DNA from: a virus
IMG/VR virus record: IMGVR_UViG_3300032235_000647
Span: 62,001-126,000 of that record
DNA length: 64,000 bases
Strand: one strand, 5' to 3'
The notes beneath the pieces were generated by a model, which saw nothing but the letters and a program-made list of their open reading frames with translations, was not told where the DNA came from and made no database searches. This document shows, piece after piece, positions 18,905 through 45,737 of this stretch. The position numbers and the translations under genes are program-made. The stretch's first letter is position 1. Each line of letters opens with the position of its first letter.

Positions 18905-19033
18905 TTAGTGATTTTTATATACAAACGGATCTCGTTTACGAAGTTCTTCTAATTTTTTCTTGTAGATTTCTTGTCTTTTTTTCTCTTCTCGCTTATTTTT
19001 AAAATAAGCTATAATTTTCTTGATTGGGTTCAT
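18905..19033 (-). CDS. 42-residue charged microprotein (KKRDPF-type)
   Basis: This short gene encodes MNPIKKIIAYFKNK followed by a Lys/Glu/Arg-rich helix and the ending RKRDPFVYKNH. The first dozen residues form an amphipathic, possibly membrane-associating helix. I recognise this pattern (I-K-K-I-x-A-Y-F-K-x-K ... R-D-P-F-x-Y-K) from other phage microproteins, but its function is unknown. It overlaps the end of the preceding gene by 35 bases and ends seven bases before the inverted repeat. Only two or three neutral codons would be expected by chance in this frame at this composition, and the charged pattern supports a real product. Confidence 0.6.
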   Translation of the reverse strand: MNPIKKIIAYFKNKREEKKRQEIYKKKLEELRKRDPFVYKNH

Positions 19034-20465
19034 TTTCTAATAATTTATTAAGGTTATTAACATAAGTATCTGAAATATATTCTTCACTCATTGAAAGTAA
19101 ATGATTTCTATTGTATTCTAATATCGGATATAATTTTTCATATAATTCATCCCATTCTTCATTTGTTTTTTCTACTAATGATTTTACTACTTCATATACT
19201 TTTATAATCCTTTCAGAATTATTTTGTATAGTATCATAAGATTCATCCCAAAACTCTGAAAAAGTTTTGAATCCCCATTTTTGTAGTTGATTTATTATAC
19301 CTGGCTTACCCAATATTACAAATGGATGTAAGTGAGCAATTCCTTTAAATGTTTTTTCCGAAATATAATGTCCATGTTCGTAAAATAAAGTTTCGGTTAT
19401 TAAACTAAAATATGTGTTTAAGTATGGTTCTTTCTGTTCAAATCCAAATCCCCAAACTTTTCCAATATTATCATAATCAATTATATTCTTTGGATTTTTA
19501 CTTAATTTAAAATACCCACCAATCATTTTAGATTTATATTGTTTATTTTGAATATATGAAACACCATCATAATCGGTACCATTTGCCAATTCTAATCCCA
19601 TATCGTCAAGACCATAATCCCATAATGTCAAATCAATCGAGTACTCACATTCTTTTAACAAACCATCAGTTTGAAGTAAACTTAAAATAATTACTCTATG
19701 TGGTGCAACTCTTCTATTATATATTAAACATTTTTTTGGTTTATTTTTTGTATTCTTTAATTCATTTAGATTCATTAAAGAACATTCATTTGCATTTCCA
19801 TTAAATTCAAATACTGAATCTGTACTTAACAAATGTTCGGTCTCTTTTTTCTTAGCAGTTACTGACCAGCAATAATACGCAGTATAAAATTGTTCTGATT
19901 CTAAATTATTTTTTAAATACTCTTCGTAAATATCACGAGTATTCATTGATGAAGATATTACAATAACTTTTTTTGGTGGTATATCTAATTCTTTACATTT
20001 TTTATGCAAATTTTCAAATAAAGAGTTTCTTATATCACCTTCACTACTATAATCCACAACTAAATAAAAATTAGTAGCATTTCTTAAATATTTTTTAGCA
20101 ATTTCAGATATAAAATCAAATGAATGTGTATGTTCATGATAATTTGTATTTTTACCAGTACAAGTATCAATACTACCATACGGATGAACTGTCATTAAAA
20201 ATAATGATTTATCCATTGAGTTTTCAAGAATTTTTTCATTCTCATCATATCTTACATCTGATATGTGTAAATCATTTAAACTCAATGGTAAATTCAAATT
20301 ACATTCATATACAGGTACTTGAACGTATTTTGAATTAAAAGTTTCTATAAAATTGTGATTAATCACAAAATTATTATTCCAAATATCATCAGTAAAATTC
20401 CAATTCCACCCAGTAGGAACAAATCCAGCAGGTCCCACTACATCAAATAATCTTTTAATTTTCAT
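18999..20465 (-). CDS. Glycosyltransferase-like protein, FKTF..WDESYD family (member 1)
   Basis: The 488 residues are probably a cytoplasmic sugar-transferring enzyme, although the activity is not proven. The C-terminal third carries the shared block I-S-E-K-T-F-K-G...HPFVILGKPG...GFKTFSEFWDESYD (about 380-428). It resembles the donor-binding end of fucosyltransferase-like folds (x-S-E-K...P..x-G). A similar block recurs in the proteins at 24126 and 27393 and, degenerate, at 48885. N-terminal features include VGPAGFVPTGWNWNF and a middle CLIYNRRVAPHR segment, also echoed in the 27393 protein (FLMYNRNSERMHR). It is the last large gene of the glycan cluster, overlapping the E1-beta gene by 11 bases. 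Confidence 0.65.
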   Translation of the reverse strand: MKIKRLFDVVGPAGFVPTGWNWNFTDDIWNNNFVINHNFIETFNSKYVQVPVYECNLNLPLSLNDLHISDVRYDENEKILENSMDKSLFLMTVHPYGSIDTCTGKNTNYHEHTHSFDFISEIAKKYLRNATNFYLVVDYSSEGDIRNSLFENLHKKCKELDIPPKKVIVISSSMNTRDIYEEYLKNNLESEQFYTAYYCWSVTAKKKETEHLLSTDSVFEFNGNANECSLMNLNELKNTKNKPKKCLIYNRRVAPHRVIILSLLQTDGLLKECEYSIDLTLWDYGLDDMGLELANGTDYDGVSYIQNKQYKSKMIGGYFKLSKNPKNIIDYDNIGKVWGFGFEQKEPYLNTYFSLITETLFYEHGHYISEKTFKGIAHLHPFVILGKPGIINQLQKWGFKTFSEFWDESYDTIQNNSERIIKVYEVVKSLVEKTNEEWDELYEKLYPILEYNRNHLLSMSEEYISDTYVNNLNKLLENEPNQENYSLF

Positions 20466-21003
20466 AATATAATTCAGGATATTCTACTAAAATAATTGGT
20501 CCATTTGATGATAATGCTTTTTTATATGCAGGAAGAATTTTATCAGCTGAATCCAATTTTATAATGGGAATATGTTTTAACATTGAAGAAAATTCATCAG
20601 AATAATCTGCCTTATGTTGATGGCCAGGATCCAATGGTTTATCAGAACCCTTTCCTACTCTAATGATTACATTTGGAATAAATTGACCATCTGACATTGA
20701 TTCAAGTTTATCCAAATGATTTATTAATTGGTTTGATGCACAAATAAGAAAATCCCATCTTGGATAAAATGATACTACACGATGACCTGTCATGGCCAAC
20801 CCAATACTCATACCCATCTGAGTTTCCTCCATTACTGGAGTTTCAATCATTCGTTCTTTTGGTAACCCTTCAATAGTTTTACTCATTGGGTTTCCATAAT
20901 ATACAATTTGTTGGCCAATAAAAATTGTGGAAGGGTCTTCCATGCACAATTTCATTGATTCTGTCAATGCATCTAAATACGGTGTATATTGTGGTGAACT
21001 CAT
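20455..21003 (-). CDS. E1 beta-like pyrimidine-binding subunit of a thiamine-diphosphate enzyme
   Basis: This 182-residue protein matches the pyrimidine-binding domain of transketolase-like E1-beta subunits. The motif ETPVMEETQMGMSIGLAM (54-71) includes the glutamate (E59) that activates the cofactor, and LDPGHQHKADYSDEFSSML (about 128-146) follows. The usual C-terminal transketolase domain is missing (full E1-beta is about 325 residues). The matching diphosphate-binding subunit is the separate gene at 25232. Together they could transfer a two-carbon or acyl unit in synthesis of a branched or keto sugar, suggested by the flanking epimerases. The start overlaps the upstream stop as TAATG. Confidence 0.8.
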   Translation of the reverse strand: MSSPQYTPYLDALTESMKLCMEDPSTIFIGQQIVYYGNPMSKTIEGLPKERMIETPVMEETQMGMSIGLAMTGHRVVSFYPRWDFLICASNQLINHLDKLESMSDGQFIPNVIIRVGKGSDKPLDPGHQHKADYSDEFSSMLKHIPIIKLDSADKILPAYKKALSSNGPIILVEYPELYYEN

Positions 21004-21995
21004 TATGGTCTTGAATTTGGATTATACTGATGTTTGTTTTCTTTATACCACTCAAGTGTTTCTTTAAGTGCCTGTTTCAAATCTCTTTTAGGTTTCCAAC
21101 CTGCTGTATTTATTTTCTTTGATGATAATAAACGAATCGGAATCATTGGTGCCTTATTATTTACATAAGAAATAGGATTATCATTTCCTTCTATTTCTTT
21201 AATCCATCCCAACACTTCATTTACACTAAATCCTTCACCATACGCAACATTAAAGATATTATATGTATCGTTGTTTTCGGCAACCCAAATGAACCCATCT
21301 GCCATATCTTCAACATGAAGTAAATCTCTAACTTCAGAGCCATCACCCCATACTGGAATTGGATTTAATCCATCAGCAACTTTACGAATATTTGCAGGAG
21401 TAACATGACATTTTTCGAAATCAAATTTATCGTTTGGTCCAAATGCATTTGAAGGTCTAACAATCAAACACTGCATTGGATTGTGAATTTGGTGTGAAAA
21501 ATAATCACAAAGTAATTCACCATATCGTTTCATATTACCAACTGCTCCATAAATTGGAAAAGTTGGAGTTGCGTGAATGTTTATATCTTCGGTACAAAAC
21601 TCATCCTTCATATCAGGATAAACGGTATTAGATGAAATGAATAGAAATTTCTTTACTCCATTTCTCCAACTTTGTTCCATAAGATTTACATTCATTTCAA
21701 CATTAGGTGTTACATGAAGTAATGGATTTTCTTTTGTATCTAATGCGTTAGATGTATTTGCTGCACAATGAAATACAACATCTACATCCTTTGTAACATT
21801 TTCACAAAAAAACTTTGTCTGCAAATCACCTTGAAAATGGTGTACTGATTCCCATCCATCAAAATCACCTCTTAAATCTCTTGAAAAAGAAGTTGATCTT
21901 AAATTTCTATAACCTTTTTCCCAAAGTAATCGCAGTAAATGTGAACCAATGAATCCACTTGCACCCGTAACTAAAATAGTATCTGTTTTTTTCAT
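21003..21995 (-). CDS. NAD-dependent epimerase/dehydratase (extended SDR)
   Basis: This 330-residue nucleotide-sugar SDR has the Rossmann motif TGASGFIGSHL (10-20), the F-H-C-A-A-N motif, S-S-N-T-V-Y with the active-site Ser/Thr, the late substrate motif RPSNAFGPND and GDGSEVRDLLHVEDMADG. The expected Y-x-x-x-K is replaced by IYGAVGNMKRYGE, with the lysine shifted relative to the tyrosine. Similar W/M-K-R spacing is known in some phage and bacterial relatives. It would act on a nucleotide-activated sugar such as a GDP- or dTDP-hexose; the substrate is not predictable. It is adjacent to another SDR at 21999 and to E1-beta. Confidence 0.88.
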   Translation of the reverse strand: MKKTDTILVTGASGFIGSHLLRLLWEKGYRNLRSTSFSRDLRGDFDGWESVHHFQGDLQTKFFCENVTKDVDVVFHCAANTSNALDTKENPLLHVTPNVEMNVNLMEQSWRNGVKKFLFISSNTVYPDMKDEFCTEDINIHATPTFPIYGAVGNMKRYGELLCDYFSHQIHNPMQCLIVRPSNAFGPNDKFDFEKCHVTPANIRKVADGLNPIPVWGDGSEVRDLLHVEDMADGFIWVAENNDTYNIFNVAYGEGFSVNEVLGWIKEIEGNDNPISYVNNKAPMIPIRLLSSKKINTAGWKPKRDLKQALKETLEWYKENKHQYNPNSRP

Positions 21996-21998
21996 AAC

Positions 21999-22964
21999 TT
22001 ATTTTTTATACTCATTTAAATAATAATCAATTGTTTGTTTTAATCCTTCTTTAAGGGATACTTGTTGAATAATACCAAATGATTCTGCTCTTTCGGTACT
22101 CATCAATCTTTTTGTATCGCCGTTTGGTTTTGTTGGGTCCCACTCAATATCCACTTTAACTCCATACATTTCTTCGTAGATTTCTACAAGAGTTTCTGCA
22201 AGTTCTTTGATTGTTACACCAGTTCCACTACCCAAATTAATTGGTTGTGTTAATTTTTGTTCGTACGCCTTAATAATTCCATCGGCAATATCACCTGCAT
22301 AGATAAAATCTCTAATAGGTGAACCATCTCCCCAACATACCAATGGATGTTCTTTTTCACCAAACAATCTTTTAATAAGTGATGCAATTACGGTTGATTC
22401 AGGTCCAAAATTATCGTGTCTACCATAAATGTTAGCAGGTCTTACAATTGACGCCTTATTCCAGTCATAAGATACTGAATAAACTTCTGCTTGTAATTCA
22501 CCTAGTCTCTTTGCCCATCCAGCATATTTATCTTTTTCCGATGGGAAAGTTTTCCAAACATCATCTTCATAAAATACTTCTGCTGGTTGATAAACTCCAA
22601 CCGTTGAAGTGTATACATACCATTCAACATCTTCCAATCTTGCTGCTTCCATCATATTGGTGTTGAATTGTAACATTGGTACAAAATAATCTGCAGGTTG
22701 CTCCATTGCTCTTTTCGGAGAACCCTTTACACCTGCAATATGAAAAATTATTTCTTGTCCTTTTACAACTTGTTTACACGAATCAAATTCTCTCAAATCT
22801 GCCTTGATAAACTGATAATTACCATCTTTATACTTTTCAACTTGATTCATTGGTTCGTGGATATCCACTGCTGTTACAAGTGCACCTTTATCGATACACT
22901 TTTGAACCATATAATTACCAACTAATCCATTGGCACCTGTTATTAAAACCTTTTTACCTTCCAT
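21999..22964 (-). CDS. NAD-dependent epimerase/dehydratase (extended SDR)
   Basis: The 321 residues begin with VLITGANGLVGNYM (5-18). They contain FHIAGVKGSP, YTSTVGVY, and an active-site-like region DKYAGWAKRLGE where the Lys is five positions after Tyr rather than four. The substrate-binding end has RPANIYGRHDNFGPES and WGDGSPIRDFIYAGDIADG. This is a typical nucleotide-sugar epimerase or dehydratase of the GDP-fucose synthase/UDP-glucose epimerase superfamily. It is the upstream partner of the SDR at 21003, three bases away, and probably performs a consecutive step on the same sugar. A promoter-like variant lies 14 bases upstream. Confidence 0.88.
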   Translation of the reverse strand: MEGKKVLITGANGLVGNYMVQKCIDKGALVTAVDIHEPMNQVEKYKDGNYQFIKADLREFDSCKQVVKGQEIIFHIAGVKGSPKRAMEQPADYFVPMLQFNTNMMEAARLEDVEWYVYTSTVGVYQPAEVFYEDDVWKTFPSEKDKYAGWAKRLGELQAEVYSVSYDWNKASIVRPANIYGRHDNFGPESTVIASLIKRLFGEKEHPLVCWGDGSPIRDFIYAGDIADGIIKAYEQKLTQPINLGSGTGVTIKELAETLVEIYEEMYGVKVDIEWDPTKPNGDTKRLMSTERAESFGIIQQVSLKEGLKQTIDYYLNEYKK

Positions 22965-22978
22965 TTTCTTATTTTATA

Positions 22979-22987
22979 TATACATAT
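22979..22987 (-). promoter_or_regulatory. Variant promoter-like motif ATATGTATA
   Basis: One mismatch from the recurrent 9-mer, 14 bases before the start at 22964, in a 35-base spacer that is otherwise only A/T. Confidence 0.3.
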
Positions 22988-22999
22988 ATGTTTTTATTT

Positions 23000-24124
23000 T
23001 TATATTGGTTTCCTACCATCGTTTTTAATTAAATCAGTAAAATTTGATTGAATATAAATTTTATTAAATTTATATAAACGATTTACTTCATCAACAAAAT
23101 TATGATATTCATTATGCTCCTCCATCCAAACTGCTTTACGTGTAAATGATTCATAATCCATGTGAGTCCATTGATATATTTTACCAAAATAAACAAGAGT
23201 TGCTTCGGAGTATTGTTGTTTCTGAATTCTATTTTCAAATTTTTTGTAAATCAATTCAGCAAACTCCCTCATTTCTTTGTAATTATCTAATTGAGTAACA
23301 AATGAACATCTTAAATTTTGTATAGTCGGTATAGTACTAATAAAATCTAAATTCTCCATTAAAACTTCCCAATTACCACCAATTCTTGTTTTATTTTCGT
23401 AGGTATCTTTTGTAGCAGCATCTATTGATATTTCTACTGATTTAACATACGGATGTGCCTTTTCTATCCTCTTCCAATTCTTTTCATTAAATAAATTGGC
23501 ATTAGTTGTCAAATAAATATCATCCAAATTTGGCCATAATTTTGGGTCAAATTCAAATAAAAATTTTCTAAATGATTTTGATGCCCAAGGGTCACCACTA
23601 CCTGTTATTGCTAATTTTCTTGCTTCTTTTGAATAGTTATTTTTTATAAAATCAGTTATATTATCAATTTTTATAATTTCATTTGGTTTTGCCATTATAA
23701 CGTGTAATCTACATGATGGACATTTTAAATTACAACTATCATCATAAGTAAAATTAATTGAACCAGGTCCTGAACTTATATTTTTGTCATCTACTACAAA
23801 TCCATCATGCATTTTAAATGGTAATTTTTCTTTTTCTACAAAAAATCCACTTGCTTTTTGAGTGTTTATCAATGTACTTAAATGAGGACAGGCAGTTTTA
23901 TGACAATGTGAATACGAACCATCTAAAACAGATTCTCTGATTTTATTTGCAGTTTCAGATTTCCAAACATCGTAATTTAATGTACCATCTTCATTTTTAC
24001 CATACCATAATTTTGTTTCCAACCAAGTTGGACAACATAATGTTGCATGGTCTTCAAAAAATTCTATATGTTTGAATGGTTGAATACAAATATATTTTTT
24101 AAGAATGTCTTCTTTATTTTTCAT
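23000..24124 (-). CDS. Radical SAM protein
   Basis: This 374-residue protein has the [4Fe-4S] radical SAM motif CNLKCPSC (C131, C135, C138), preceded by F-T-Y-D-D-S. GSGDP (a variant of the GGEP motif) lies about 50 residues later. Extra cysteines in CIQPFKHIEF...LCCPTWL (13-35) and a C-H-x3-C-P motif (74-79) may bind an auxiliary cluster or substrate. Related proteins modify sugars or peptides by radical chemistry. It lies in the sugar cluster between an SDR and a WDESYD-family protein, so a carbohydrate substrate is plausible, but a peptide one cannot be excluded. The N-terminal auxiliary Cys resembles SPASM/twitch-type proteins. Confidence 0.85.
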   Translation of the reverse strand: MKNKEDILKKYICIQPFKHIEFFEDHATLCCPTWLETKLWYGKNEDGTLNYDVWKSETANKIRESVLDGSYSHCHKTACPHLSTLINTQKASGFFVEKEKLPFKMHDGFVVDDKNISSGPGSINFTYDDSCNLKCPSCRLHVIMAKPNEIIKIDNITDFIKNNYSKEARKLAITGSGDPWASKSFRKFLFEFDPKLWPNLDDIYLTTNANLFNEKNWKRIEKAHPYVKSVEISIDAATKDTYENKTRIGGNWEVLMENLDFISTIPTIQNLRCSFVTQLDNYKEMREFAELIYKKFENRIQKQQYSEATLVYFGKIYQWTHMDYESFTRKAVWMEEHNEYHNFVDEVNRLYKFNKIYIQSNFTDLIKNDGRKPI

Positions 24125-24125
24125 G

Positions 24126-25247
24126 TTACAGATTTTTAAAAAACAAACTTATACCATCCATTTTCATTTGATTAAAATGATTTTTATTATATATACAAAT
24201 TTCTTTTGTTTGCTGGTATAGTTCATTTAGTTTATTTATATCATATGAATTTAATTTTAAAACCACTTCAGAAATTTTAAAATATCTTTCTCTAGGCTCA
24301 AATATTGTATCATATGATTCATCCCAAAATTTTGAAAAGGTTTTAAATCCCAATCTTTTTAACTCTTTAAGATAGTTACAAGGCCCAAAAACTATAAATG
24401 GTTGATAATTTAAAATCGGTTTTAAAATCTTTTCTGATATAAACAATTCGTTATTTACATACGATGATTCAGTTACCAAATGAATACACGAATTTAAAAA
24501 TAAATCTTTCCGCATAGTATTGTTAACAGTAAAATTAAAATTTTTATTTGTATCCAACTCTATCGGAATATGTTTTATATATTCTTCTACTTGTAATTTC
24601 TGTTCTTGAAAAGGAAAACAATGTATTCCTTCAAATGTTAAAAAACTAAAATACGAATCACTAAAATCATTTGTTAAATAATCATGTAATAATGAATATC
24701 TGTGTTCTTTATCTACCGTTCTATTAAACGATAAAAATTTTTTACTTCTAAATTTATTTAGTTCATCTAATGATATCTCTTCACTTTTGTATCCCAAATC
24801 AGTTTTAACATTAAAAAATGAATTTTTATGATTGATTGCATCTTCAAGAAAAAAATGATAAGAATATACATTTCTTTCTTGCAAATTTACATTACTAGTT
24901 AAGAATATACATCTATGTAAAATTCCATGCTTTTTTAATTTTAAAGCTAATTTTCTATATCTTTCAAACGGTGGTGCGTCTGCAATAGAACATAATATTA
25001 TTTTTAAATCATGTTCTTCTATAAATTTTTTAATATCTACTTTTCGTAAAATAGCATCAATTCTCTTTTCAAGAGCATGATACATTTCAGTAGGCTCTAT
25101 CAATATGTAATTTTTATAATCTGTTTTAATATTTGGAAATTGTGTACACGAATATTCATTTATGACCTTTTGAGTCATAGGTCCTTCGAAACACCACTTT
25201 CCATAATTTGATTCAGGTGGTAAAATAAAATTTAAAAAACTACCCAT
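24126..25247 (-). CDS. Glycosyltransferase-like protein, FKTF..WDESYD family (member 2)
   Basis: This 373-residue member of the family carries F-I-S-E-K-I-L-K-P-I-L...PFIVFGPCNYL...GFKTFSKFWDESYD (about 275-320). Other segments are KFLSFNRTVDKEHRYSLL, which resembles the L-x-Y-N-R...R-x-x-L motif of the other members, and a Rossmann-like N-terminal half. The order of motifs suggests a GT-B-like transferase with a donor-binding C-terminal domain. It overlaps the E1-alpha gene by 16 bases, and the radical SAM gene follows directly. Its exact substrate is unknown. Confidence 0.65.
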   Translation of the reverse strand: MGSFLNFILPPESNYGKWCFEGPMTQKVINEYSCTQFPNIKTDYKNYILIEPTEMYHALEKRIDAILRKVDIKKFIEEHDLKIILCSIADAPPFERYRKLALKLKKHGILHRCIFLTSNVNLQERNVYSYHFFLEDAINHKNSFFNVKTDLGYKSEEISLDELNKFRSKKFLSFNRTVDKEHRYSLLHDYLTNDFSDSYFSFLTFEGIHCFPFQEQKLQVEEYIKHIPIELDTNKNFNFTVNNTMRKDLFLNSCIHLVTESSYVNNELFISEKILKPILNYQPFIVFGPCNYLKELKRLGFKTFSKFWDESYDTIFEPRERYFKISEVVLKLNSYDINKLNELYQQTKEICIYNKNHFNQMKMDGISLFFKNL

Positions 25248-25870
25248 TTTCCCGTCCCATAATGTGGGTATTTAGATTTATATTTATAATAAATTACATC
25301 ACTTGGTATTTCTCTCTGAATGCCACCCCATGTATATGATGTTGGTGTATTGGTTGAAACTTCGTTATCTTCTACTACAAAATATAGTGGTAAATTGAAA
25401 TTTCTTGCGTATTTATGAACTTCATAAAAGAATCCAGTTTCAAAAGTCATGTCACCAATAAAACACCAAACTTTTTCATCACTACCTTTTAGTTTTATTG
25501 ATTTTGCAACTCCAAGTGCAATAGGTAATGTACCTGTTACAATTGCAGACGAATAAAAATTAGATTCTTTATCTACGATAGTTATTGATTTTCCATCAAG
25601 AATTTTTTCTTTTAATGTAGATGGTTTAACTCCGTGAAGAAGTGCATGATAATGAGATCTCCAAGTTGAAAATACCCAATCGGTTGGCGATATTTTTTTG
25701 AATACTTCAATAAGTTGTTCTTCATTTCCATTTGATAAATGAATAGGTCCTTTTATTTCTCCTTTTTCCCAATGAGAAATAATATCATCTTCAAAATGAA
25801 TAAGTTCTTCCTTATTCCAGTTACCATCCAACCATCGGTCTTCATGATAATTTAAATTTTTAATTTCCAT
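25232..25870 (-). CDS. E1 alpha-like TPP-binding subunit of a thiamine-diphosphate enzyme
   Basis: This 212-residue protein has the features of the diphosphate-binding E1-alpha/transketolase domain. These are STWRSHYHALLHG (68-80), GTLPIALGVA (113-122), and the TPP motif WCFIGDMTFETGFFYE (135-150) leading to EDNEVSTNTP (167-176), with the magnesium ligands expected at D140 and N169. It is shorter than bacterial E1-alpha (about 320-360 residues), so it may be compact or need the small beta partner at 20455. The pair could perform a ketol or acyl transfer on a nucleotide sugar. It overlaps the RmlC-type gene by 11 bases. Confidence 0.85.
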   Translation of the reverse strand: MEIKNLNYHEDRWLDGNWNKEELIHFEDDIISHWEKGEIKGPIHLSNGNEEQLIEVFKKISPTDWVFSTWRSHYHALLHGVKPSTLKEKILDGKSITIVDKESNFYSSAIVTGTLPIALGVAKSIKLKGSDEKVWCFIGDMTFETGFFYEVHKYARNFNLPLYFVVEDNEVSTNTPTSYTWGGIQREIPSDVIYYKYKSKYPHYGTGKWVVF

Positions 25871-26444
25871 TTTTATCTCTTTTTGACAAGATTGGGTTTT
25901 CGGTTGGCCAATCTATATTAAATCTTGAATCGTTCCATACAATAGTATGTTGTTTATTTTCATCATTATATTCACCCTCGTATGCCATTTTATATGAGAA
26001 AATGGAATCATCTTCCATTACAAAATGTCCATTTGCAAAATAAGGCGGAACAAGAACTTGAGTTCCAGTTTCAGGTGAGAGAATAAATGATTCCCATTTA
26101 CCAAAATCAGGTGTTTTTTCTCTTACATCTAAAACTACTAAATAAATTCTACCGTGTGGACACGAAACTAATTTCCAAGTTTTTTCATCCCAATGTAAAC
26201 CTCTAAGAACACCTTTTTTAGATTTAGAATATCTATCATGTTTAAATGCTAACCCATCATTTCTATCGGCTGCTGGTAGTAATCTATCGTAATAGTCTGA
26301 ATGATAGGTTGTTGATATTGAACCACGAATTTCGTGATAAATTGATGGTTGTACAATTTTTACTTGTGGTAAAACCGACCCATTATAAAAATGAAAATCG
26401 TTCCAACTTCTTTCTTTATAAAATATACTACGTCCTTGTGCCAT
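25860..26444 (-). CDS. rfbC: dTDP-4-dehydrorhamnose 3,5-epimerase-like (RmlC family)
   Basis: This 194-residue cupin enzyme has the RmlC hallmark RGLHWDEKTWKLVSCPHGRIYLVVLDVR (81-108), with H84 and K91 in the active-site positions, followed by VLVPPYFANGHFV (about 128-140). The length matches the family (about 180-200). It would epimerise a 4-keto-6-deoxy nucleotide sugar at C3 and/or C5. No RmlA or RmlB homologue is identified here, so the substrate may come from the host. It sits between E1-alpha and an SDR, with short overlaps on both sides. Confidence 0.9.
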   Translation of the reverse strand: MAQGRSIFYKERSWNDFHFYNGSVLPQVKIVQPSIYHEIRGSISTTYHSDYYDRLLPAADRNDGLAFKHDRYSKSKKGVLRGLHWDEKTWKLVSCPHGRIYLVVLDVREKTPDFGKWESFILSPETGTQVLVPPYFANGHFVMEDDSIFSYKMAYEGEYNDENKQHTIVWNDSRFNIDWPTENPILSKRDKNGN

Positions 26445-31032: not shown

Positions 31033-31055
31033 AACTTCTTATTTATTAATATATA

Positions 31056-32522: not shown

Positions 32523-33814
32523 ATTCCAACATTTAAATGTATTATATTTTTTTCTTTAATTTTGCCATATAAAGTATAATCTAAACAAGTTGATAATCCA
32601 TCTTCAATATTATCTCTATATCCATTCTGTACTTCGTTATTGTATCTCAACTGGTTCCATCTACTATTATCATCTTTCCATCTACCATTATTAAAACCAC
32701 AATCATCATGATTTAATTTTAATAATTTACTATTTCTTCTAAATGGAATATATGAATAATAATTTGTAAATGGTTTAAAATTATCTAAATATACATTGAA
32801 TAATTCACCATGATTTTTATTACCAGAAATATCTTTTAGTCGATATTCTTCTATATTGTGATTTTTGTAATGTATTTTTACTTCACCATTTTGTTCTATT
32901 AAAAATTCATTTATACTTCCTTTGAAAAAATTTTCTAATTCATTATCTGAACCAAGTATTATATTATTATGGGAATAGTTGTATATGTAATTTGAAATAT
33001 TAATATTACTCAATTTATCATTTACTGAAAAATTTATTATTTTATTATTTTTATTGTATTCAATTTTTATTTTATTATGAGATGTTGTTACGATATCAGA
33101 ATGTACATCGTAATATGCACCAGTCTTATCAAAAACTTGTAAATAAAATCTATTAAATGAATTATAAAATAATTTAAAATCGAATCCGTGTATTGTTAAT
33201 ATAGGAAATATATCAAATTGTTTATTTACATCATATACAACTCTATCCAAATTAATATCAAGTTCTATATTAAAATTTCTATTGTAGTTTATTACATTCG
33301 GAATTTTTGCATATGCATCAACTCCGTTAAAAATAGGTAACACATCTTGACTAATATATTCTGTTATGTGATTTGAAAATGGTATATTATTTTTTACACA
33401 CCTATATCGTAAATCATCATCTTCAAATCCCCAGCCCCAGTATAAATTAGAAAATCCATTTATTTCTTTAAAAATGGTTGATGGAAATAATGTCATTCCA
33501 CCAAAATAAGATTCAAATGGAATATTATCTGTTGCTAAATGAATTGGTGTATTTGAGTAAGAATAATCAACATCCACAGGAATCATATCCACATCGTGGA
33601 TTACTACATAATCACATTTGTTTTTATGTGATTCTATAAATCCAATGTTACATAACATCCCACGATTAAATAATTTTGCATCATCTTGCTCAACAATTAT
33701 AACTACATAGTTTTGATATGAATTTGAATCAAGATATTCAATTATTGATTTTTTGAATTTTTCAAGATGTTCGTAACGATTTCGGTAAGGAACAATAATT
33801 CCTAACTTTTCCAT
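32519..33814 (-). CDS. GT7-type galactosyltransferase with inserted LamG domain (paralogue)
   Basis: This 431-residue sister of the previous gene has the same order. GT7 motifs VPYRNRYEHLEKF, HDVDMIPVD (73-81) and LYWGWGFEDDDLRYR (124-138) come first. A LamG-like insert then runs from about 160 to 345, rich in Asn and Tyr. Finally there is a GT7 C-terminus with PFRRNSKLLKL and EDGLSTCLDYTL. The insert is highly divergent from that of the paralogue, while the catalytic motifs are kept, suggesting that the acceptor-binding module varies. It lies five bases from the small gene at 33819. Confidence 0.78.
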   Translation of the reverse strand: MEKLGIIVPYRNRYEHLEKFKKSIIEYLDSNSYQNYVVIIVEQDDAKLFNRGMLCNIGFIESHKNKCDYVVIHDVDMIPVDVDYSYSNTPIHLATDNIPFESYFGGMTLFPSTIFKEINGFSNLYWGWGFEDDDLRYRCVKNNIPFSNHITEYISQDVLPIFNGVDAYAKIPNVINYNRNFNIELDINLDRVVYDVNKQFDIFPILTIHGFDFKLFYNSFNRFYLQVFDKTGAYYDVHSDIVTTSHNKIKIEYNKNNKIINFSVNDKLSNINISNYIYNYSHNNIILGSDNELENFFKGSINEFLIEQNGEVKIHYKNHNIEEYRLKDISGNKNHGELFNVYLDNFKPFTNYYSYIPFRRNSKLLKLNHDDCGFNNGRWKDDNSRWNQLRYNNEVQNGYRDNIEDGLSTCLDYTLYGKIKEKNIIHLNVGI

Positions 33815-33818
33815 CTAT

Positions 33819-34022
33819 TTATTTTTTATCACCTTCATCGATGTATTTTTCTTTCCAAAGGGATAAATACCATTCAATTCTTGGTCCCCATGTATCCTTA
33901 TCAATCTCTTCAAACCAAATGGTTAATGCGTCAAGAGAGTTGGCAATTTTTTCTAATGCCTTAACTTTTCTCTCTTCAAGAATTTGTTGATTTTCGTTTG
34001 TTTCAGTTGTTTTTGTAGCCAT
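33819..34022 (-). CDS. Small acidic-basic protein, unknown
   Basis: The 67 residues begin with a polar, disordered stretch and continue as a helix with L-E-K-I-A-N-S-L-D-A-L-T-I-W, then DTWGPRIEWYLSLW. I recognise the pattern of a short helical tryptophan-rich protein, but no family. It is co-directional with the glycosyltransferase pair and has its own upstream promoter-like motif at 34045. A role as a small partner or chaperone for the GT7 proteins is possible but unsupported. Confidence 0.6.
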   Translation of the reverse strand: MATKTTETNENQQILEERKVKALEKIANSLDALTIWFEEIDKDTWGPRIEWYLSLWKEKYIDEGDKK

Positions 34023-34044
34023 AACTTTTATTTTAATTCGTATA

Positions 34045-34053
34045 TATAAATAT
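34045..34053 (-). promoter_or_regulatory. ATATTTATA promoter-like motif
   Basis: The coding-strand 9-mer in a longer ATATATTTATATATA context lies 22 bases before the start at 34022, between two glycan-cluster genes. Confidence 0.5.
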
Positions 34054-34060
34054 ATTATTT

Positions 34061-34912
34061 TTAGATAATTACAATTTTTTTACTCAATTTATTCCACTTT
34101 GAATAATCCCAATGATTGTTAGTATTCATCCTCTCAAACATGAATCCAGGGTTGTTTATATCAATCTTCCAATCAAACATTTCAATACTTTTATACATTT
34201 TTAAATACTCTTGCCAGTAGGTATAGTCTTCTTTTGTTTCTGAAACTTCTTTCAATCTTTCCAAAACCGTTGAATCCCATTTAAAGTGATGTACTTGAAC
34301 CAATCCCTCGCCTCTACCAATTGGATATCTTTTTGGATGTTTAATATTATCCTTACCCCACGAGTTTTTATCATCACCAAAATCTACATAATGTTGGCCA
34401 GATGTTACATTTATATAACCCTTCATAACACACACTTTATTTGGGCAAGCCCCACTCATAGGATATCTAAAGAAACCTGCAAGTGGGAACTCACTCCAAA
34501 CATCAGTTAGGCTACTAACTTCAGGAAATGTTCCATTCTCTCCTATTCTATCTACAAATCCACCAGTGATAAACTCCCATCCATTTTCTTCACATTCAGA
34601 AATCATTTCTCTAATTGGTTTTGGATAAATGTGAAATTCATCATCATCTGATACAATCCACCATTCGTTTGGTTTCGTAGATTTCACTTCATTATATAAT
34701 TGGGTTACTCTTTCCCAATTAAATTTTGATTCGGTTACTATTTTAAAAGGTTTTATTCCAAGATTAATTACATCTTCTAAAATACCATCTAGTTCATGTT
34801 GTCTATATACCACAACATAAATTTCATCTACAACATCTTTGTAGTGTTTTAACATATGTGGTAATAAAGTTGTATTGTGTCCTACAACGGTAACTAAATT
34901 TAGTTTTTGCAT
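34061..34912 (-). CDS. GT-A type glycosyltransferase
   Basis: The 283 residues have a GT-A-like start (LNLVTVVGHNTTLLPHMLKHY), the D-x-D-type motif WIVSDDDEFHI (about 85-95), an aromatic-rich middle, and HHFKWDS (about 222-228) in the acceptor/metal-binding region. This is like the family 2/92-type transferases found in phage and capsule loci. It would transfer a single sugar onto a lipid, glycan or protein acceptor in the cytoplasm. It overlaps the methyltransferase gene by 13 bases. Confidence 0.75.
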   Translation of the reverse strand: MQKLNLVTVVGHNTTLLPHMLKHYKDVVDEIYVVVYRQHELDGILEDVINLGIKPFKIVTESKFNWERVTQLYNEVKSTKPNEWWIVSDDDEFHIYPKPIREMISECEENGWEFITGGFVDRIGENGTFPEVSSLTDVWSEFPLAGFFRYPMSGACPNKVCVMKGYINVTSGQHYVDFGDDKNSWGKDNIKHPKRYPIGRGEGLVQVHHFKWDSTVLERLKEVSETKEDYTYWQEYLKMYKSIEMFDWKIDINNPGFMFERMNTNNHWDYSKWNKLSKKIVII

Positions 34913-35682
34913 TTTTGAATAAAAGTTAAACCAGTAGATGCTGGTTTTGTTCTAAGTATTCCATTATTGAAAAAATTAAATACTTCCCAATCTGAACTTT
35001 GTTTTAATTCTTTTATAAACCGAGAAGGTCCATTTGCATATTCTTGATAATTTTCTGATTTTACATCATGTGTAACTATATGCTCTTTTTCATAAGATGT
35101 ATCAGTATCATGAATTGAAATTATACCAGACGGGTTTAAAAGTTTAGAATATAGTTCAAAATCTTGTTTTACATTTTCATAAGAATGTCCTGCATCAATA
35201 TGTAAATAGTCGATTTTAATATCCTCTTTTACAAAATAATTGTAAAATGCATTTTCAGTTGTGTCTAGAATAATTCTACAAGGAAAATGTTTTCTAAAAA
35301 ATGAATCTTCATCTACCCAATCAGTTTCACCATTAATTTTATTATTGGCATCTACTAAAATAGTTGTTCCAATATTACCCCATTCAAGTTGTCTATCTCC
35401 TTCGAAAATTCGTTGGTCATGTAAATCTAATCTTGCTTGAGACATGATTCTCGGAATAAATCCACCTCCACTTCCAAGACAAACACAAGTTTTGGCTCGC
35501 ATGTATTGAATAGTAGAATAAATTAATATACCATCACCTAAGTGTAAATCAGTGGCACCATGAGTCCAACGATATTTTACAGGAGTTAGTTCTAAAAAAG
35601 ATTCTCCGTTTACAGATTCTTTTTGTATTTGGTTATTCGTAAAAAAATCTTTTACAATATTAAAATTTATAATGCTACCCAT
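34900..35682 (-). CDS. Class I SAM-dependent methyltransferase
   Basis: This 260-residue protein has a Rossmann methyltransferase core with the glycine motif VCLGSGGGFIPR (about 68-79), an acidic residue region LVDANN, and IDYLHIDAGHSYENVKQDFELYSKLLNPSGIISIHDTD (about 172-210), typical of the sugar or glycan methyltransferases called Methyltransf_24. The methyl acceptor is probably a sugar hydroxyl in the glycan made by the cluster, but could be a peptide. It has a 147-base noncoding gap upstream containing a palindrome. Confidence 0.82.
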   Translation of the reverse strand: MGSIINFNIVKDFFTNNQIQKESVNGESFLELTPVKYRWTHGATDLHLGDGILIYSTIQYMRAKTCVCLGSGGGFIPRIMSQARLDLHDQRIFEGDRQLEWGNIGTTILVDANNKINGETDWVDEDSFFRKHFPCRIILDTTENAFYNYFVKEDIKIDYLHIDAGHSYENVKQDFELYSKLLNPSGIISIHDTDTSYEKEHIVTHDVKSENYQEYANGPSRFIKELKQSSDWEVFNFFNNGILRTKPASTGLTFIQKCKN

Positions 35683-35829
35683 AGTATATTAGTTAAGAGT
35701 ACTTACTACTATTTTAATTCTATTTAACTGATCAGTTATTATAGTGATCTACCCCCCTACCCCCCTTTAAGGATAAATATAAGAGTTTTCACCAAACGAT
35801 ATATATTTATATAAAAATATACAAAAAAA
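35683..35829. promoter_or_regulatory. 147-bp noncoding gap with palindrome and C-tract repeat
   Basis: No start codon with a useful frame is seen on either strand. Visible are a perfect 14-base palindrome TAACTGATCAGTTA (35725-35738), a tandem TACCCCCC repeat (35750-35765) and A/T-rich stretches resembling the recurrent promoter motif in opposite orientations (35773-35820). It could be a regulatory region, recombination site or replication start. Confidence 0.5.
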
Positions 35830-37029
35830 TTATCTCAAAACAGCATTTCGAACATCATCAATCCATTTACTTAAATTGGTAAATTTAAGCATATATTCCT
35901 TTAATTTCATAAAATTTTCTAAACGAGTTTCATACGAATCTTTTAATATTGTTTTAACACATTTATCAAATTCCATTTTTGTTGAAGCACGATATTTGTA
36001 TGATATCTCTGGAGCCCAGTCATGATTTAAAATTGGTAATTTACCATAATCAACTGCCTGAAAAATAGAATATCCAAATGGTTCTTTAAAATATGCACCA
36101 TGAAAAATTCCCCAATTTTTTAACATAAATTGATGATGAATACCAGGGTCCCATTGGTATATATCGATATCCCTTAATGTATATGTACTTGTATCTCTTA
36201 AATTTTTAATATCATATTGTGAAGTTAATGCATATCCATGATGGCCATTAAGCCAATGTATACACTTACGAGTTTCTGCCCTAGATGCGAATCCTATTTT
36301 ACCATTATCAATATGAGTTGTTAATGATAAATTATGATTAAACTGATACATATTTGGAATTATATAAGTATAATTTGGAAACTCGTCTAAAAATGAAGAA
36401 TGATTATTACCAATCCATATACGCTTTTTAAATGTTGATAAATACTCTTCATAAAATTTTGCATCTATATTCGTTTGTGTTTGTATTTGATTTAGCTCGG
36501 GTATTTTATTTAAAACATTTATGATTTCCTTAGCATATGCATGTACAAAAACCGTTTTGAATTTATCTTCGTGGTGCCAGATATGCTCTCTTTTATGATA
36601 ATGTGGATGAAGAACATGAATTTCTTGTGAATTTTTTAACCACTCTTCCGTTATCTTTGGATTATCACCATGAAAATGATATGTTATACCTTTGGGTAAT
36701 GAATTTGCATTAAAATTTAAAGGTCTCTTTGAATCAATAAGAAGTTTCCAAGTTTTTCTTAAAGGCAAGGTAGGCCACACGTATTTTAAAAAATCATTAA
36801 CCCACATATCTGCACCACCAACTATGGTATTACCTGCTCCAGTACAAATCAAGATTTTATGAATACCTTTTCGTAAACTATCATGTGTATATAATTTATC
36901 CTCATCATCAGTCCATTCATTTAGAATTTCTGCAATATGATTGGTATCGATTTCAGTATCATACTGTAAAAAGTATTCTTTCAGAGATTCATGTAATTTT
37001 ATTAAATCTTTACCCGAAACTTTTGTCAT
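35830..37029 (-). CDS. GT4-like glycosyltransferase (GT-B fold)
   Basis: This 399-residue protein has an N-terminal Rossmann-like half, with KILICTGAGNTIVGGADMWVNDFL (about 55-78), and a C-terminal half ending with WGIFHGAYFKEPFGYSIFQAVDYGKLPIL (about 314-342). The latter contains the E-P-F-G-x-S..Q-A...G motif of GT4 donor-binding domains. The substrate cannot be deduced. It ends with a helical R-N-A-V-L-R. It is upstream of the noncoding gap and has a short gap before the radical SAM gene. Confidence 0.8.
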   Translation of the reverse strand: MTKVSGKDLIKLHESLKEYFLQYDTEIDTNHIAEILNEWTDDEDKLYTHDSLRKGIHKILICTGAGNTIVGGADMWVNDFLKYVWPTLPLRKTWKLLIDSKRPLNFNANSLPKGITYHFHGDNPKITEEWLKNSQEIHVLHPHYHKREHIWHHEDKFKTVFVHAYAKEIINVLNKIPELNQIQTQTNIDAKFYEEYLSTFKKRIWIGNNHSSFLDEFPNYTYIIPNMYQFNHNLSLTTHIDNGKIGFASRAETRKCIHWLNGHHGYALTSQYDIKNLRDTSTYTLRDIDIYQWDPGIHHQFMLKNWGIFHGAYFKEPFGYSIFQAVDYGKLPILNHDWAPEISYKYRASTKMEFDKCVKTILKDSYETRLENFMKLKEYMLKFTNLSKWIDDVRNAVLR

Positions 37030-37059
37030 TTTAGTTATTAATTTTATATAATTATTTAA

Positions 37060-38088
37060 TTATTCAAAAAGTGCTGAAGCACATGACCTACATATCGTAT
37101 CGTATGATTCTTGTACTTTTTGTTGATGCTCGTCCTTTCCCCAAAAATCTTTTAATTCTTGAGTTTTAAAATCTCCAAACTGAATTTCCATATCATAATC
37201 ATTACAACACAAAAATACCTTACCAGCTGCATTTACATGAATCCACCCAACGGGCCGGCCACCAACCTCTCTACCATTACCACACCCAATAACTTTTTTA
37301 GTTTCATCACCTCGTTGTAAATTTCTTTTTATTGCCTCTTTGTTAGTCATTATATGGTCTAATAATCCAGCTCTATCAATTAACGATGGTACATCAAATA
37401 CTTGTAAACCAGGAAATAATTCTCTAGCTTTATTTGTTTGAGTTGCAAGTTCTCCAGTAGTTGGTTCCAAATCCATATCGATTGGGAAGTCGGGTCCTTT
37501 ATCTAGCCAACCACCTCTGTCACCAAAAGAATTGTAATTAGACCCGTTTACTTGAATTGAGAATGATTTATTTATAACCATATCGGGTAGTTTTTCTATA
37601 GCATAATTAACATTAGAAATTAATTTATCAAATTGTTTTATGTTTATACCACTTCGTAAACTCCAAATTTCGGGTTCAAATGCTGGTATATTCAAACATA
37701 TACCATTTACAACTCCTTTGTATTTTATAATCAAATCTACTTTCTCAGGTGTTAAAGGAATACCATTTGATAAGACCATAAAACATAATCTATATTTCTG
37801 ACAAATTTGTAATAGTTCTTCAAAATGTGGATATAAAAGAATTTCATTGTAATGTGCTGTATAGAATCCACCAAAATGTTTATGTACTAACCCATCTTCT
37901 TTGTCTCTTTCATCTATTAAATTTTTAATTATTTTTTCTAATAATTCAACACTCATTACTTCTTTACCATTTGTCGGATTACCTCTGTACTTAACGGGAC
38001 AAAACCAACATTTTGCATTACAGACCCCAAACGGGTCTAATTGCATTTGATGAATTTTATAAGTTTGGAATTGTTCTTTTATTGTCAT
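37060..38088 (-). CDS. Radical SAM/SPASM-type protein
   Basis: I choose the ATG that overlaps the upstream stop as ATGA; an in-frame ATG 14 codons earlier would overlap more. The resulting 342 residues have C-N-A-K-C-W-F-C (C23, C27, C30) and a C-terminal C-C-N-D (near 310) and C-R-S-C typical of SPASM-like auxiliary cluster binding. Segment F-L-C-C-N-D-Y-D-M-E-I-Q-F-G-D-F-K is like that of other SPASM proteins. It lies among sugar and GT genes. The substrate may be a peptide or a sugar. Confidence 0.85.
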   Translation of the reverse strand: MTIKEQFQTYKIHQMQLDPFGVCNAKCWFCPVKYRGNPTNGKEVMSVELLEKIIKNLIDERDKEDGLVHKHFGGFYTAHYNEILLYPHFEELLQICQKYRLCFMVLSNGIPLTPEKVDLIIKYKGVVNGICLNIPAFEPEIWSLRSGINIKQFDKLISNVNYAIEKLPDMVINKSFSIQVNGSNYNSFGDRGGWLDKGPDFPIDMDLEPTTGELATQTNKARELFPGLQVFDVPSLIDRAGLLDHIMTNKEAIKRNLQRGDETKKVIGCGNGREVGGRPVGWIHVNAAGKVFLCCNDYDMEIQFGDFKTQELKDFWGKDEHQQKVQESYDTICRSCASALFE

Positions 38089-39029
38089 ACCAATACTGAT
38101 TTTTTTGCTGTATTTTGTATTAGTTTCCAATACTCATACGAGGTGGTTCCTTCTTTAATATCTAACACTTCATTGTATGGTAATTTGTTCATATATTCTG
38201 CTTTAAAAAATAATCCAGTTGTTGCATTTACAACTCCTGCATTATGAAATATGTTGCAACTATTCCATAAATTACCAGACGATGTAGCCCAACTAAATTC
38301 CATATTTGGATGGCATATTGTATTTTTGTTCATTTTCCATCCATTCCACAAAACTGCCCACATATCAGCACACCATATTTGAATTTCATGATATTCTGGG
38401 TTATTAATTTTTTTAATTCTATTTAGTTCGGTTATATTTGTAAATAATTTTTCACAATCATTTTCAACATTTTCCCAAAATTTTGATGTTATACCTTTCA
38501 TTAGATATTGTGCACCAATTCCGTTTAATTCGTTTTGTTCAACAACAGATTCATCAATATCTGCAATAGAGCACATAGCTTTTAATATATCATCTCCTTT
38601 TGATTTTATATAAGAATGAGATATATACCATCTACAATCTGAACCATACCAATTATCGTCATTTATCATGTCATTGGTAATCCACTCACTAATTGGTTTT
38701 GTAAAAGCAATATCACAATCGTGATAAAAAATTACATCACTATGTATTTCAGGTCTAGCTTCCCAATGTTGTTTTAATATATTAGGTCTTATTGAAGATG
38801 TATACCCTTTTTTTATTCTAGTATCGTTATAAAAGAAAAATCTAACATAATTGTATTTTTTTGCTAATTTACTCCATTGTTCCGGTATAATTCCATTTTC
38901 TACATAACATACCACATCCATATTATTTGGATTAACACCCATTTCAATAAAGTTGTGTATCATCACTTCAACTTGCCAAGTATAGTATGGGATGGCAGGT
39001 TGGGCACATACAAATCGTAAATTTTTCAT
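38085..39029 (-). CDS. GT-A-like glycosyltransferase, first gene after the tail genes
   Basis: The 314 residues begin MKNLRFVCAQPAIPYYTWQ. They contain the D-x-D-type motif VIFYHDCDIAF (about 100-110) and a conserved F-H-N-A-G-V (about 260). This pattern matches nucleotide-sugar transferases with metal-binding D-C-D. Its last four bases form the ATGA junction with the radical SAM gene. It directly follows the threonine-rich tail protein gene (13 bases), making it the first candidate to act on that protein. Confidence 0.72.
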   Translation of the reverse strand: MKNLRFVCAQPAIPYYTWQVEVMIHNFIEMGVNPNNMDVVCYVENGIIPEQWSKLAKKYNYVRFFFYNDTRIKKGYTSSIRPNILKQHWEARPEIHSDVIFYHDCDIAFTKPISEWITNDMINDDNWYGSDCRWYISHSYIKSKGDDILKAMCSIADIDESVVEQNELNGIGAQYLMKGITSKFWENVENDCEKLFTNITELNRIKKINNPEYHEIQIWCADMWAVLWNGWKMNKNTICHPNMEFSWATSSGNLWNSCNIFHNAGVVNATTGLFFKAEYMNKLPYNEVLDIKEGTTSYEYWKLIQNTAKKSVLV

Positions 39030-39042
39030 AACATATTATTAA

Positions 39043-45569: not shown

Positions 45570-45737
45570 ATGGATAAACAAAAATATACAACACTGCAAA
45601 TAAAAAAAGAAACCCATGAACTTCTCAAACATTATTGCGAAGAACATGGGCATAAATTAAGTGGATTGGTTGAATCTATGATTAAACAAAGAATTCAACA
45701 ACCAAAACCAACAAATGTATTACGAGTTAAAACTTAA
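45570..45737 (+). CDS. Ribbon-helix-helix-like small protein, the only plus-strand gene
   Basis: The 55 residues begin MDKQKYTTLQIKKETHELLK, continue HYCEEHGHKLSGLVESMIKQRI and end in a polar tail. The beta strand Y-T-T-L-Q-I followed by two helices with S-G-L-V-E is the pattern of Arc/CopG-type ribbon-helix-helix DNA-binding proteins. A repressor or activator role is likely by fold only. It runs opposite to every neighbour. Its last 11 bases overlap the end of the convergent Mre11-Rad50 gene. The upstream spacer has repeats ATATATAGAA twice (about 45536-45556). Confidence 0.7.
   Translation: MDKQKYTTLQIKKETHELLKHYCEEHGHKLSGLVESMIKQRIQQPKPTNVLRVKT

Follow-up and report, generated by a model that had tools for sequence, protein, structure and literature searches.

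A phage locus with two predicted glycosylation modules, one of them linked to threonine tracts of virion proteins

The stretch of DNA analyzed here (the window, 64,000 bases) comprises bases 62001-126000 of the virus record IMGVR_UViG_3300032235_000647, which is 130,194 bases in full. The window encodes a T4-type portal and terminase. The terminase shares ∼55% identity with its counterparts in Flavobacterium phage immuto and Microcystis phage Mel-JY01, and from such relatives a host among the Bacteroidota may be guessed. The locus under study, 18999-39029, is a tight run of 19 open reading frames (ORFs) of at least 180 residues, all on the minus strand and mostly overlapping or only a few bases apart (Table 1). 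A preliminary description had read this run as one unusually complete glycan pathway that may decorate the virion or change the host surface. Pfam, NCBIfam and PHROG scans agreed with its gene list: three short-chain dehydrogenases/reductases (SDRs), an RmlC-like epimerase, a split thiamine pyrophosphate (TPP) enzyme, three radical SAM proteins, a methyltransferase and a LamG protein. Where at least seven transferase-like genes had been proposed, about eight were counted (31056, 32519, 34061, 18999, 24126, 27393, 35830 and 38085), some by structure model or by eye only. The single pathway itself did not withstand comparison with related viruses. Given that the gene at 38085-39029, a member of PHROG 4417, was seen in only 2 of 80 loci fetched with a GT7-type transferase of the cluster, the locus was divided into Module B (18999-37029), a sugar cassette, and Module A (38085-40479), consisting of the PHROG 4417 gene and its upstream neighbor.

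Table 1. Genes of the two modules and flanking features in the window
Feature	Coordinates	Strand	Module	Basis or remark
1829-residue protein, cytidylyltransferase-like start and DUF5661	13370-18859	-	flank	between sugar cassette and terminase
GT-B-like paralogue A	18999-20465	-	B	shared C-terminal motif
TPP enzyme beta half, E1 beta-like	20455-21003	-	B	PF02779, E 2e-4, below cut-off
SDR1	21003-21995	-	B	PF01370, E 2.5e-46; best family model GDP-fucose synthase, below cut-off
SDR2	21999-22964	-	B	PF01370, E 8e-38; best family model GDP-fucose synthase, below cut-off
Radical SAM protein	23000-24124	-	B	Pfam; present in few relatives (8/80 and 5/80 loci)
GT-B-like paralogue B	24126-25247	-	B	structure model
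TPP enzyme alpha half, E1 alpha-like	25232-25870	-	B	PF00676, E 1e-14
RmlC-like 3,5-epimerase	25860-26444	-	B	PF00908, E 2e-39
SDR3, GalE/RmlB-like	26428-27396	-	B	PF01370, E 6e-36
GT-B-like paralogue C	27393-28829	-	B	shared C-terminal motif
Stand-alone LamG-like protein	28811-29578	-	B	by eye; no significant Pfam match
Twitch-domain radical SAM protein (NF033640)	29575-31032	-	B	E 1e-105
GT7-type transferase with Laminin_G_3 domain (GT7-LamG)	31056-32522	-	B	GT7N and GT7C above cut-off
Second GT7-type transferase, fast evolving	32519-33814	-	B	GT7N and GT7C above cut-off
GT2-like protein	34061-34912	-	B	Pfam, below curated cut-off
Methyltransferase (Methyltransf_24)	34900-35682	-	B	Pfam
Conserved protein, glycosyltransferase-like by eye only	35830-37029	-	B	no Pfam match
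Radical SAM/SPASM protein	37060-38130	-	perhaps A	Pfam; PHROG 4417 locus counts
PHROG 4417 protein, GT-A/GT8-like glycosyltransferase (model)	38085-39029	-	A	PHROG match and structure model
478-residue oligo-Thr protein, fiber-like, proposed acceptor	39043-40479	-	A	adjoins tail fiber gene; virion role inferred from position
Tail fiber with Peptidase_S74 chaperone	40479-45482	-	flank	relative in 40/80 GT7 loci

PHROG 4417 carries the annotation "unknown function," and none of 37 relatives matched a Pfam family at E 0.01. A structure model of the window's member (predicted local distance difference test score of 96.3) matched LgtC with a Z score of 14.3 and a root mean square deviation of 3.7 over 239 aligned residues; glycogenin (Z 14.1), UGGT (13.8) and GlyE (13.2) followed. 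Among viral models, the first match past two likely kin of the protein was a GT8 protein. Two aspartates of a putative DxD motif (D104 and D106) and a late, putatively metal-binding histidine (H262) were invariant in the 37 sequences. The model therefore predicts a GT-A fold of the GT8-like type, a likeness that does not by itself establish function. The gene starts 13 bp downstream of the stop codon of the oligo-Thr gene, the product of which is 24% threonine and contains six internal Thr runs of 6-20 residues.

The neighborhood of PHROG 4417 genes was assessed in a sample drawn from three viral scans and seven phage records (199 loci, 161 distinct proteins and 62 clusters at 80% identity). 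The second and third scans contributed the best 80 of 581 and the best 80 of 446 matches, respectively; 12 of the 80 third-scan loci repeat the first scan, and one isolate repeats the second. Neighboring ORFs were picked longest-first and non-overlapping by simple ORF calling, a Thr-tract ORF was defined as one with 8 Thr in 20 residues or a run of 5, and one representative per cluster was scored. A Thr-tract ORF lay directly upstream of the PHROG 4417 gene in 49 of the 62 representatives but directly downstream in only 1 of 61, and of the 463 other ORFs in these stretches, 45 were of this kind (Fisher p 1e-30 in comparison with the upstream position, the loci not being independent). When all members were counted, 50 clusters had a Thr tract upstream, 5 had one only nearby, 5 had none and 2 lay at contig edges.

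The 49 upstream carriers formed 21 sequence families after tract masking, the largest of which has 25 members and is perhaps inflated by imperfect masking. Record annotations identify one carrier as a major tail protein and another as an Ig-domain protein, and one capsid carrier family corresponds to Phage_cap_E. At least two ORFs with C-terminal Thr tags were found within ∼9 kb in 54 of the 80 second-scan loci, for example the capsid- and tail-type proteins of locus L257. As a control, loci fetched with other genes of the cluster were examined: a Thr run of 8 occurred in 1 of 80 GT7 loci and 0 of 80 TPP loci, and the sole positive locus itself carries a PHROG 4417 relative. With the threshold relaxed to 20 Thr in 40 residues, the counts were 3 of 80 and 0 of 80, respectively. 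The control counts of Thr runs of 8 rule out an oligo-Thr protein as the acceptor of the whole cluster in all relatives.

Low-complexity DNA can expand, and the tracts could in principle be slippage products or ORF-calling artifacts that lie beside the gene by chance. Mixed codons, at least two per run, were nevertheless used in each of the 45 Thr runs inspected in the window and 11 loci, and the upstream enrichment given above, despite the relatedness of the loci, also argues against chance; this explanation is considered extremely improbable.

Additional evidence came from families of homologous virion proteins in which only some members bear a tag. Homologues of the phiFL1A major tail protein were collected from 54 loci, 53 of them complete. 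Tag and gene occurred together in 17, the tag only in 3, the gene only in 2 and neither in 31 (Fisher 5e-9); among loci with enough flank, the corresponding numbers were 14, 0, 2 and 19. One of the two gene-only proteins ends in AVTTTTTSHA, just below the cut, and the other is a truncated ORF. Among the three tag-only cases, the upstream flank is 447 bases long in one, and the other two proteins terminate in the weak sequence KTTTPVEP. In a capsid family (60 loci, from which one partial sequence and two without a stop codon were excluded), tag and gene were both present in 28 loci and both absent from 29, with no discordant locus. Thus, tag and gene co-varied in both protein families. Capsids at 94% identity to that of prophage L594 included 29 tagged proteins (counting L625, which lacks a stop) and 15 untagged ones.

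The near-identical prophages L594 and L607 share blocks of 96% and 86% identity. Between these blocks, L594 has 1002 bases containing the tagged end of the capsid gene and the PHROG 4417 gene, whereas L607 has 364 bases with neither. In these prophages, tag and gene are exchanged as one ∼1-kb block. The 364 bases of L607 encode a Big_2 Ig-like domain (E 2e-14) in a frame shifted by one base at the capsid stop. Loci L608 and L629 resemble L607 in having a Big_2 extension, located after position 6020 in all three; L613 and L619 have another extension at the capsid end. A Big_2 domain (E 2e-11) likewise forms the end of an untagged tail protein, that of L568. At their C termini, these virion proteins are therefore predicted to have one slot for either a Thr tag accompanied by the transferase or a domain extension, which behind the capsid would be in a shifted frame. 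The proposed sugar coat may serve in shielding, adhesion or stability, and its replacement by Ig-like domains points to a function at the particle surface.

These results bear on a second alternative, in which the Thr tracts are mere flexible linkers and PHROG 4417 is a passenger of late operons that modifies DNA, lipid or some other protein. The family does lie among late genes in annotated phages, and some lineages have no tract nearby. A passenger would not, however, predict the presence of the tag inside homologous capsid and tail proteins, nor the joint swap of tag and gene, and this alternative is regarded as improbable.

It is instead very likely that the PHROG 4417 protein is a Thr-tract glycosyltransferase. 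In the proposed mechanism, a soluble GT-A, GT8-like enzyme would put a sugar on threonine runs of virion proteins, using a host NDP-sugar or, in the window's phage, perhaps the product of Module B, and the threonines would be glycosylated before or during virion assembly. In the window, the acceptor would be the oligo-Thr protein encoded immediately upstream, beside the tail fiber; we consider it likely that the enzyme acts on this protein. Its internal Thr runs and its position next to the tail fiber make the tail region the most natural candidate for the site of decoration in this phage. In other phages, the family would serve C-terminal oligo-Thr tags on capsid and tail proteins. Taken jointly, the data make a good case for a portable system in which an oligo-Thr tag is grafted onto exposed capsid, tail, Ig-like or fiber proteins together with a dedicated GT8-like O-glycosyltransferase, and which serves phages of Firmicutes, Chryseobacterium and aquatic hosts (hosts of metagenomic and IMG/VR loci being predicted ones). 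For the genes at 38085 and 39043, we infer sugar transfer, its O-linkage, the identity of the sugar and the pairing of enzyme with acceptor. The proposal that the cluster decorates the virion is in this way well supported for one gene, 38085-39029, through its link to oligo-Thr virion-type proteins. Among the papers listed in searches of open-licence full texts (preprints excluded), none described a link between Thr tags and PHROG 4417.

Several observations weigh against so general a reading. Five of the 62 clusters have no Thr-dense ORF in the locus, and one of these holds 21 loci with 4 kb of flank; in five others, including those of Enterococcus phage VPE25 and Staphylococcus phage PT1-4, the Thr-dense ORF is only nearby, and two clusters lie at contig edges. 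The Thr run lies within 12 residues of the C terminus in only 12 of the 49 upstream carriers. The loci compared are related, such that the counts overstate independent events: at 97% identity the capsid set collapses to 14 representatives, 2 tagged and 12 untagged, and consequently few independent events are represented in that family. Untagged loci were checked within 5 kb only. In a converse test, with results pointing both ways, a DNA pattern for nine threonines was used to retrieve at least 120 viral stretches. The run lay inside an ORF in 84 of the stretches listed (91 ORFs in total; for 20, nothing lay further downstream). In favor of the link, PHROG 4417 was present in 12 of these 84 loci, always as the next gene; against it, the gene was absent from the other 72. 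Among the first 80 stretches, which were inspected singly, several without the gene were filamentous-phage-like or unrelated. Three loci (L419, L429 and L478) carry Thr tags on virion-like proteins with no PHROG 4417 gene in the locus, and their tags may be served by another transferase. In L419, three neighboring virion-like proteins are Thr-tagged (4643-7255).

The radical SAM/SPASM protein encoded next to the PHROG 4417 gene had relatives in 3 of 32 and 9 of 80 PHROG 4417 loci (12 of 112, the scans sharing contigs) but in none of 160 Module B loci and, for this reason, is perhaps part of Module A. It adjoins PHROG 4417 in the window and in L219, L220, L221 and L356. In L220 (2501-6945), a close relative of the window's PHROG 4417 gene is followed by a different sugar-type gene set, including a cytidylyltransferase and a PfkB kinase, and these genes precede the same cytidylyltransferase-like big protein as in the window. 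By this comparison, the slot after the PHROG 4417 gene seems to hold different sugar cassettes. In the window's phage, the gene would head a rare-sugar cassette whose products may extend the glycan.

That cassette, Module B, is a genuine locus for sugar synthesis and transfer, as indicated by its domain matches, largely kept gene order and purifying selection. The RmlC-like protein scored 135.5 bits with PF00908 (cut-off 27) but did not reach the RmlC equivalog TIGR01221 (119 versus 155.75 bits). Both E1 domains are present in the split TPP enzyme, whose parts are similar to the E1 alpha and beta chains of pyruvate dehydrogenase, and the fused family PHROG 34187 matches each half (E 2e-57 and 3e-27). 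Glu59 of the beta half, which we take to be the catalytic glutamate, was invariant in 10 of 10 aligned sequences. The twitch-domain protein scored 354.1 bits with NF033640 (cut-off 170). The three GT-B-like paralogues have a common, unannotated C-terminal motif and no Pfam match. The model of paralogue B is GT-B-like, being nearest to an alpha1,3-fucosyltransferase and exostosin-1 (both Z 11.3), with T4 beta-glucosyltransferase at Z 10.6. A fourth protein with the SEK...PF...G motif of these paralogues, recognized by eye and with no Pfam match, is encoded outside the cluster at 48885-49976. In the GT7-LamG protein, the LamG domain was tentatively placed inside the GT7 catalytic domain by eye, from a short C-terminal similarity; a profile of the C-terminal 100 residues searched against the Protein Data Bank found no galactosyltransferase, only unrelated viral glycoproteins at E 0.1 or worse. 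A hydropathy scan gave no convincing membrane segment in any cluster protein; SDR3 alone was flagged, its peak being read as the Rossmann core. Nothing in the cluster therefore looks like a flippase, a polymerase or an initiating transferase bound to the membrane.

Scans of viral sequences with GT7-LamG and TPP alpha gave 177 and 152 relatives, respectively, and the best 80 of each were analyzed. Together these amount to 134 distinct contigs carrying the Module B GT7 or TPP gene. Gene strings were inspected for 47 of the 160 loci, and order and orientation were largely conserved in these 47. The usual order is tail fiber, the 35830 gene, methyltransferase, GT2-like, GT7, GT7-LamG, twitch radical SAM, LamG-like, GT-B C, SDR3, RmlC, TPP alpha, GT-B B, SDR2, SDR1, TPP beta, GT-B A and the cytidylyltransferase-like protein. 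Some TPP loci are rearranged (SDR3 lies behind SDR1 in L126, L147, L156 and L159) or lack parts. The 80 GT7 loci, many of which end inside the cassette, contained the twitch radical SAM gene in 78 cases, the GT2-like gene in 73, the methyltransferase in 70, the 35830 gene in 61, the second GT7 in 59, SDR3 in 52, TPP alpha in 47 and RmlC in 43. In comparison with one relative, the ratio of nonsynonymous to synonymous substitution rates (dN/dS) was 0.03-0.35 over 17 genes, indicating purifying selection: 0.03-0.11 in the TPP, SDR, RmlC and twitch radical SAM genes, 0.08 in GT-B A and 0.23-0.35 in GT-B B, GT-B C and the second GT7. Given the order and orientation kept in the inspected loci and these dN/dS values, the cluster is not a chance assembly. 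By sequence comparison, Module B is a conserved cassette of uncultured T4-like phages, comprising a mostly constant sugar-making core and faster-changing transferases. A tblastn search of the collection of phage isolates found no match to the GT7-LamG protein or GT-B paralogue C.

When bacterial and archaeal genomes were scanned once with an alignment of TPP alpha, 45 loci were obtained. Seven of them (L175, L176, L177, L179, L180, L183 and L186) have TPP alpha, TPP beta, SDR2, RmlC and SDR1 relatives together; their titles name SAR11, Gammaproteobacteria and one Chloroflexi metagenome-assembled genome (MAG). Three further loci filed as Saccharibacteria, Pelagibacterales and Gammaproteobacteria MAGs (L173, L174 and L214) carry the phage-type cassette or part of it and are probably phage contigs in MAG bins; L174 keeps most of the phage gene order.

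In the mechanism proposed for Module B, a host NDP-sugar would be modified in the cytosol by the SDRs and the RmlC-like epimerase, a keto-sugar would receive a two-carbon unit from the split E1-type TPP enzyme, in the way proposed for AviB1/AviB2 and Pau11/Pau12, and the GT7, GT2-like and GT-B-like enzymes would assemble the sugar. The most likely acceptor would be a virion protein in the cytosol, for example the adjacent fiber. E1-like pairs are proposed to add two-carbon branches in the sugars of avilamycin, paulomycin and everninomicin (PMC4425429, PMC10338323). By this analogy, the product would be a C2-branched deoxy-sugar, an assignment offered tentatively and at somewhat under an even chance. 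The unusual completeness suggested for the pathway is not supported: a search of the record, itself possibly a fragment, detected no PF00483 nucleotidylyltransferase, other nucleotidylyltransferase families not having been searched. The activated sugar must therefore come from the host or from an unrecognized gene.

A modified NDP-heptose is a possible alternative product, held at roughly one chance in three. The SAR11 locus L179, which has the same core, also contains a GDP-mannose-dehydratase-like SDR (E 3e-73), a GHMP kinase and an NTP_transferase/HAD fusion, and the clusters of cyanophages S-SM2 and P-TIM68 include genes annotated as phosphoheptose isomerase and carbohydrate kinase. In the window, however, the Pfam scan of the cluster revealed neither a kinase nor an isomerase of this sort, and to our knowledge an E1-type pair is not part of known heptose pathways.

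With respect to the acceptor, Module B might instead remodel the host surface (lipopolysaccharide (LPS), capsule or similar) during infection and block superinfection, with Module A an unrelated neighbor. Host-surface change has been suggested for LPS-type genes of cyanophages. The core enzymes recur in bacterial loci (the seven of 45 with the five-gene core, besides the phage-like L174), and genes annotated for capsular polysaccharide biosynthesis and as phosphoheptose isomerase are found in those cyanophage clusters that have a related TPP enzyme. By contrast, the cassette is without a membrane protein, and a tail-fiber relative is present in 40 of the 80 GT7 loci. Remodeling of the host surface is accordingly thought unlikely. 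The lack of an evident flippase or polymerase favors, but does not prove, a cytosolic acceptor, and decoration of virions by Module B is given slightly better than even odds. One point tells against the combined proposal here: the PHROG 4417 gene accompanies the GT7 gene in only the two loci of 80 noted at the outset. Observed for Module B are homology, largely kept order, purifying selection and the lack of membrane parts, from which its product and acceptor are extrapolated. As a whole, a two-module glycosylation locus of the kind described is the best explanation of the data and is thought probable.

The flanks contain further features. Relatives of the big protein at 13370-18859 were present in 36 of 80 TPP loci. 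The sulfotransferase reported nearby was confirmed as a Sulfotransfer_2 protein at 51376-51948 (E 4e-14), outside the cluster; no relative was found among the 160 Module B loci, whose flanks may not extend that far. A single ORF at 45727-48885 joins a calcineurin-like phosphoesterase to an AAA/SMC-type ATPase, as if SbcD and SbcC (T4 gp47 and gp46) were fused. A 1538-residue protein with Laminin_G_3 is encoded among virion-type genes at 55557-60173, LamG thus occurring both there and in the GT7 enzyme. A 933-residue protein with long proline runs and no Pfam match is encoded at 1500-4301.

If correct, the link to PHROG 4417 points to a portable way of placing sugars on virus particles, used across many unrelated viruses. 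Hundreds of phages of dairy, gut and aquatic bacteria would make sugar-coated particles, recognizable from sequence by one rule, a Thr tag with its neighboring gene. An unannotated phage family would gain a function, bacterial O-glycosylation a candidate portable tag, and natural near-isogenic pairs with and without the cassette would be available for testing the benefit of capsid sugars.

The closest system on record is the virion glycosylation of mycobacteriophages, which is described for a few of these phages and shields particles from antibodies (PMC12363180); Che8, Corndog and Myrna encode glycosyltransferases and bear glycans at the C termini of capsid and tail tube proteins (PMC12619734, PMC12363180). 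These are the same C termini that bear tags in PHROG 4417 prophages, where a transferase is likewise tied to capsid and tail C termini; in the window, by contrast, the runs are internal and the carrier is fiber-like. The PHROG 4417 profile did not match Che8 gp108-gp110 (E 0.09 at best), the Che8 capsid and major tail proteins have no oligo-Thr tag (4 Thr per last 60 residues), and in Che8 a large distance separates the transferase genes from those for the virion. By analogy, Module A would work like the mycobacteriophage system without being a member of it by sequence. With the GT8 enzymes LgtC, glycogenin and GlyE, the PHROG 4417 protein has in common its predicted fold (Z 13-14 over 213-239 residues), and its putative DxD and late His are invariant, whereas identity is only 6-13% and Pfam families fail to match its relatives.

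For Module B, the GT7 enzymes resemble animal beta-1,4-galactosyltransferases in having GT7N and GT7C above cut-off (E 3e-27 to B4GALT7 over residues 2-147), but a LamG domain follows in the GT7-LamG protein. AviB1/AviB2, Pau11/Pau12 and EvdU5/EvdS3 are, by their published descriptions, likewise E1 alpha/beta-like pairs beside NDP-sugar enzymes; the phage halves are short (212 and 182 residues) and four genes apart, compared with 325 and 345 residues for Pau11 and Pau12. Contiguous SDR, epimerase and transferase genes in a T4-like phage are also a feature of other T4-like phage sugar clusters, with P-SSM2 as a further cyanophage example. S-SM2 and P-TIM68, both marine and T4-like, carry SDR, transferase and sugar genes in runs, along with a TPP enzyme that shares 44-47% identity with the window's alpha half, although that enzyme is fused there and split here, and heptose-type kinase, isomerase and nucleotidyltransferase genes are present there and not here. 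These precedents, with the numerous viral relatives of the two cluster genes, show that such a locus is neither unusual in this lineage nor unprecedented. Given that the core recurs in marine bacteria and that the fused TPP enzyme sits in cyanophage sugar clusters, the kind is already known, and Module B is a variant of known phage sugar clusters, likely a rare-sugar pathway common to phages and SAR11-type marine bacteria.

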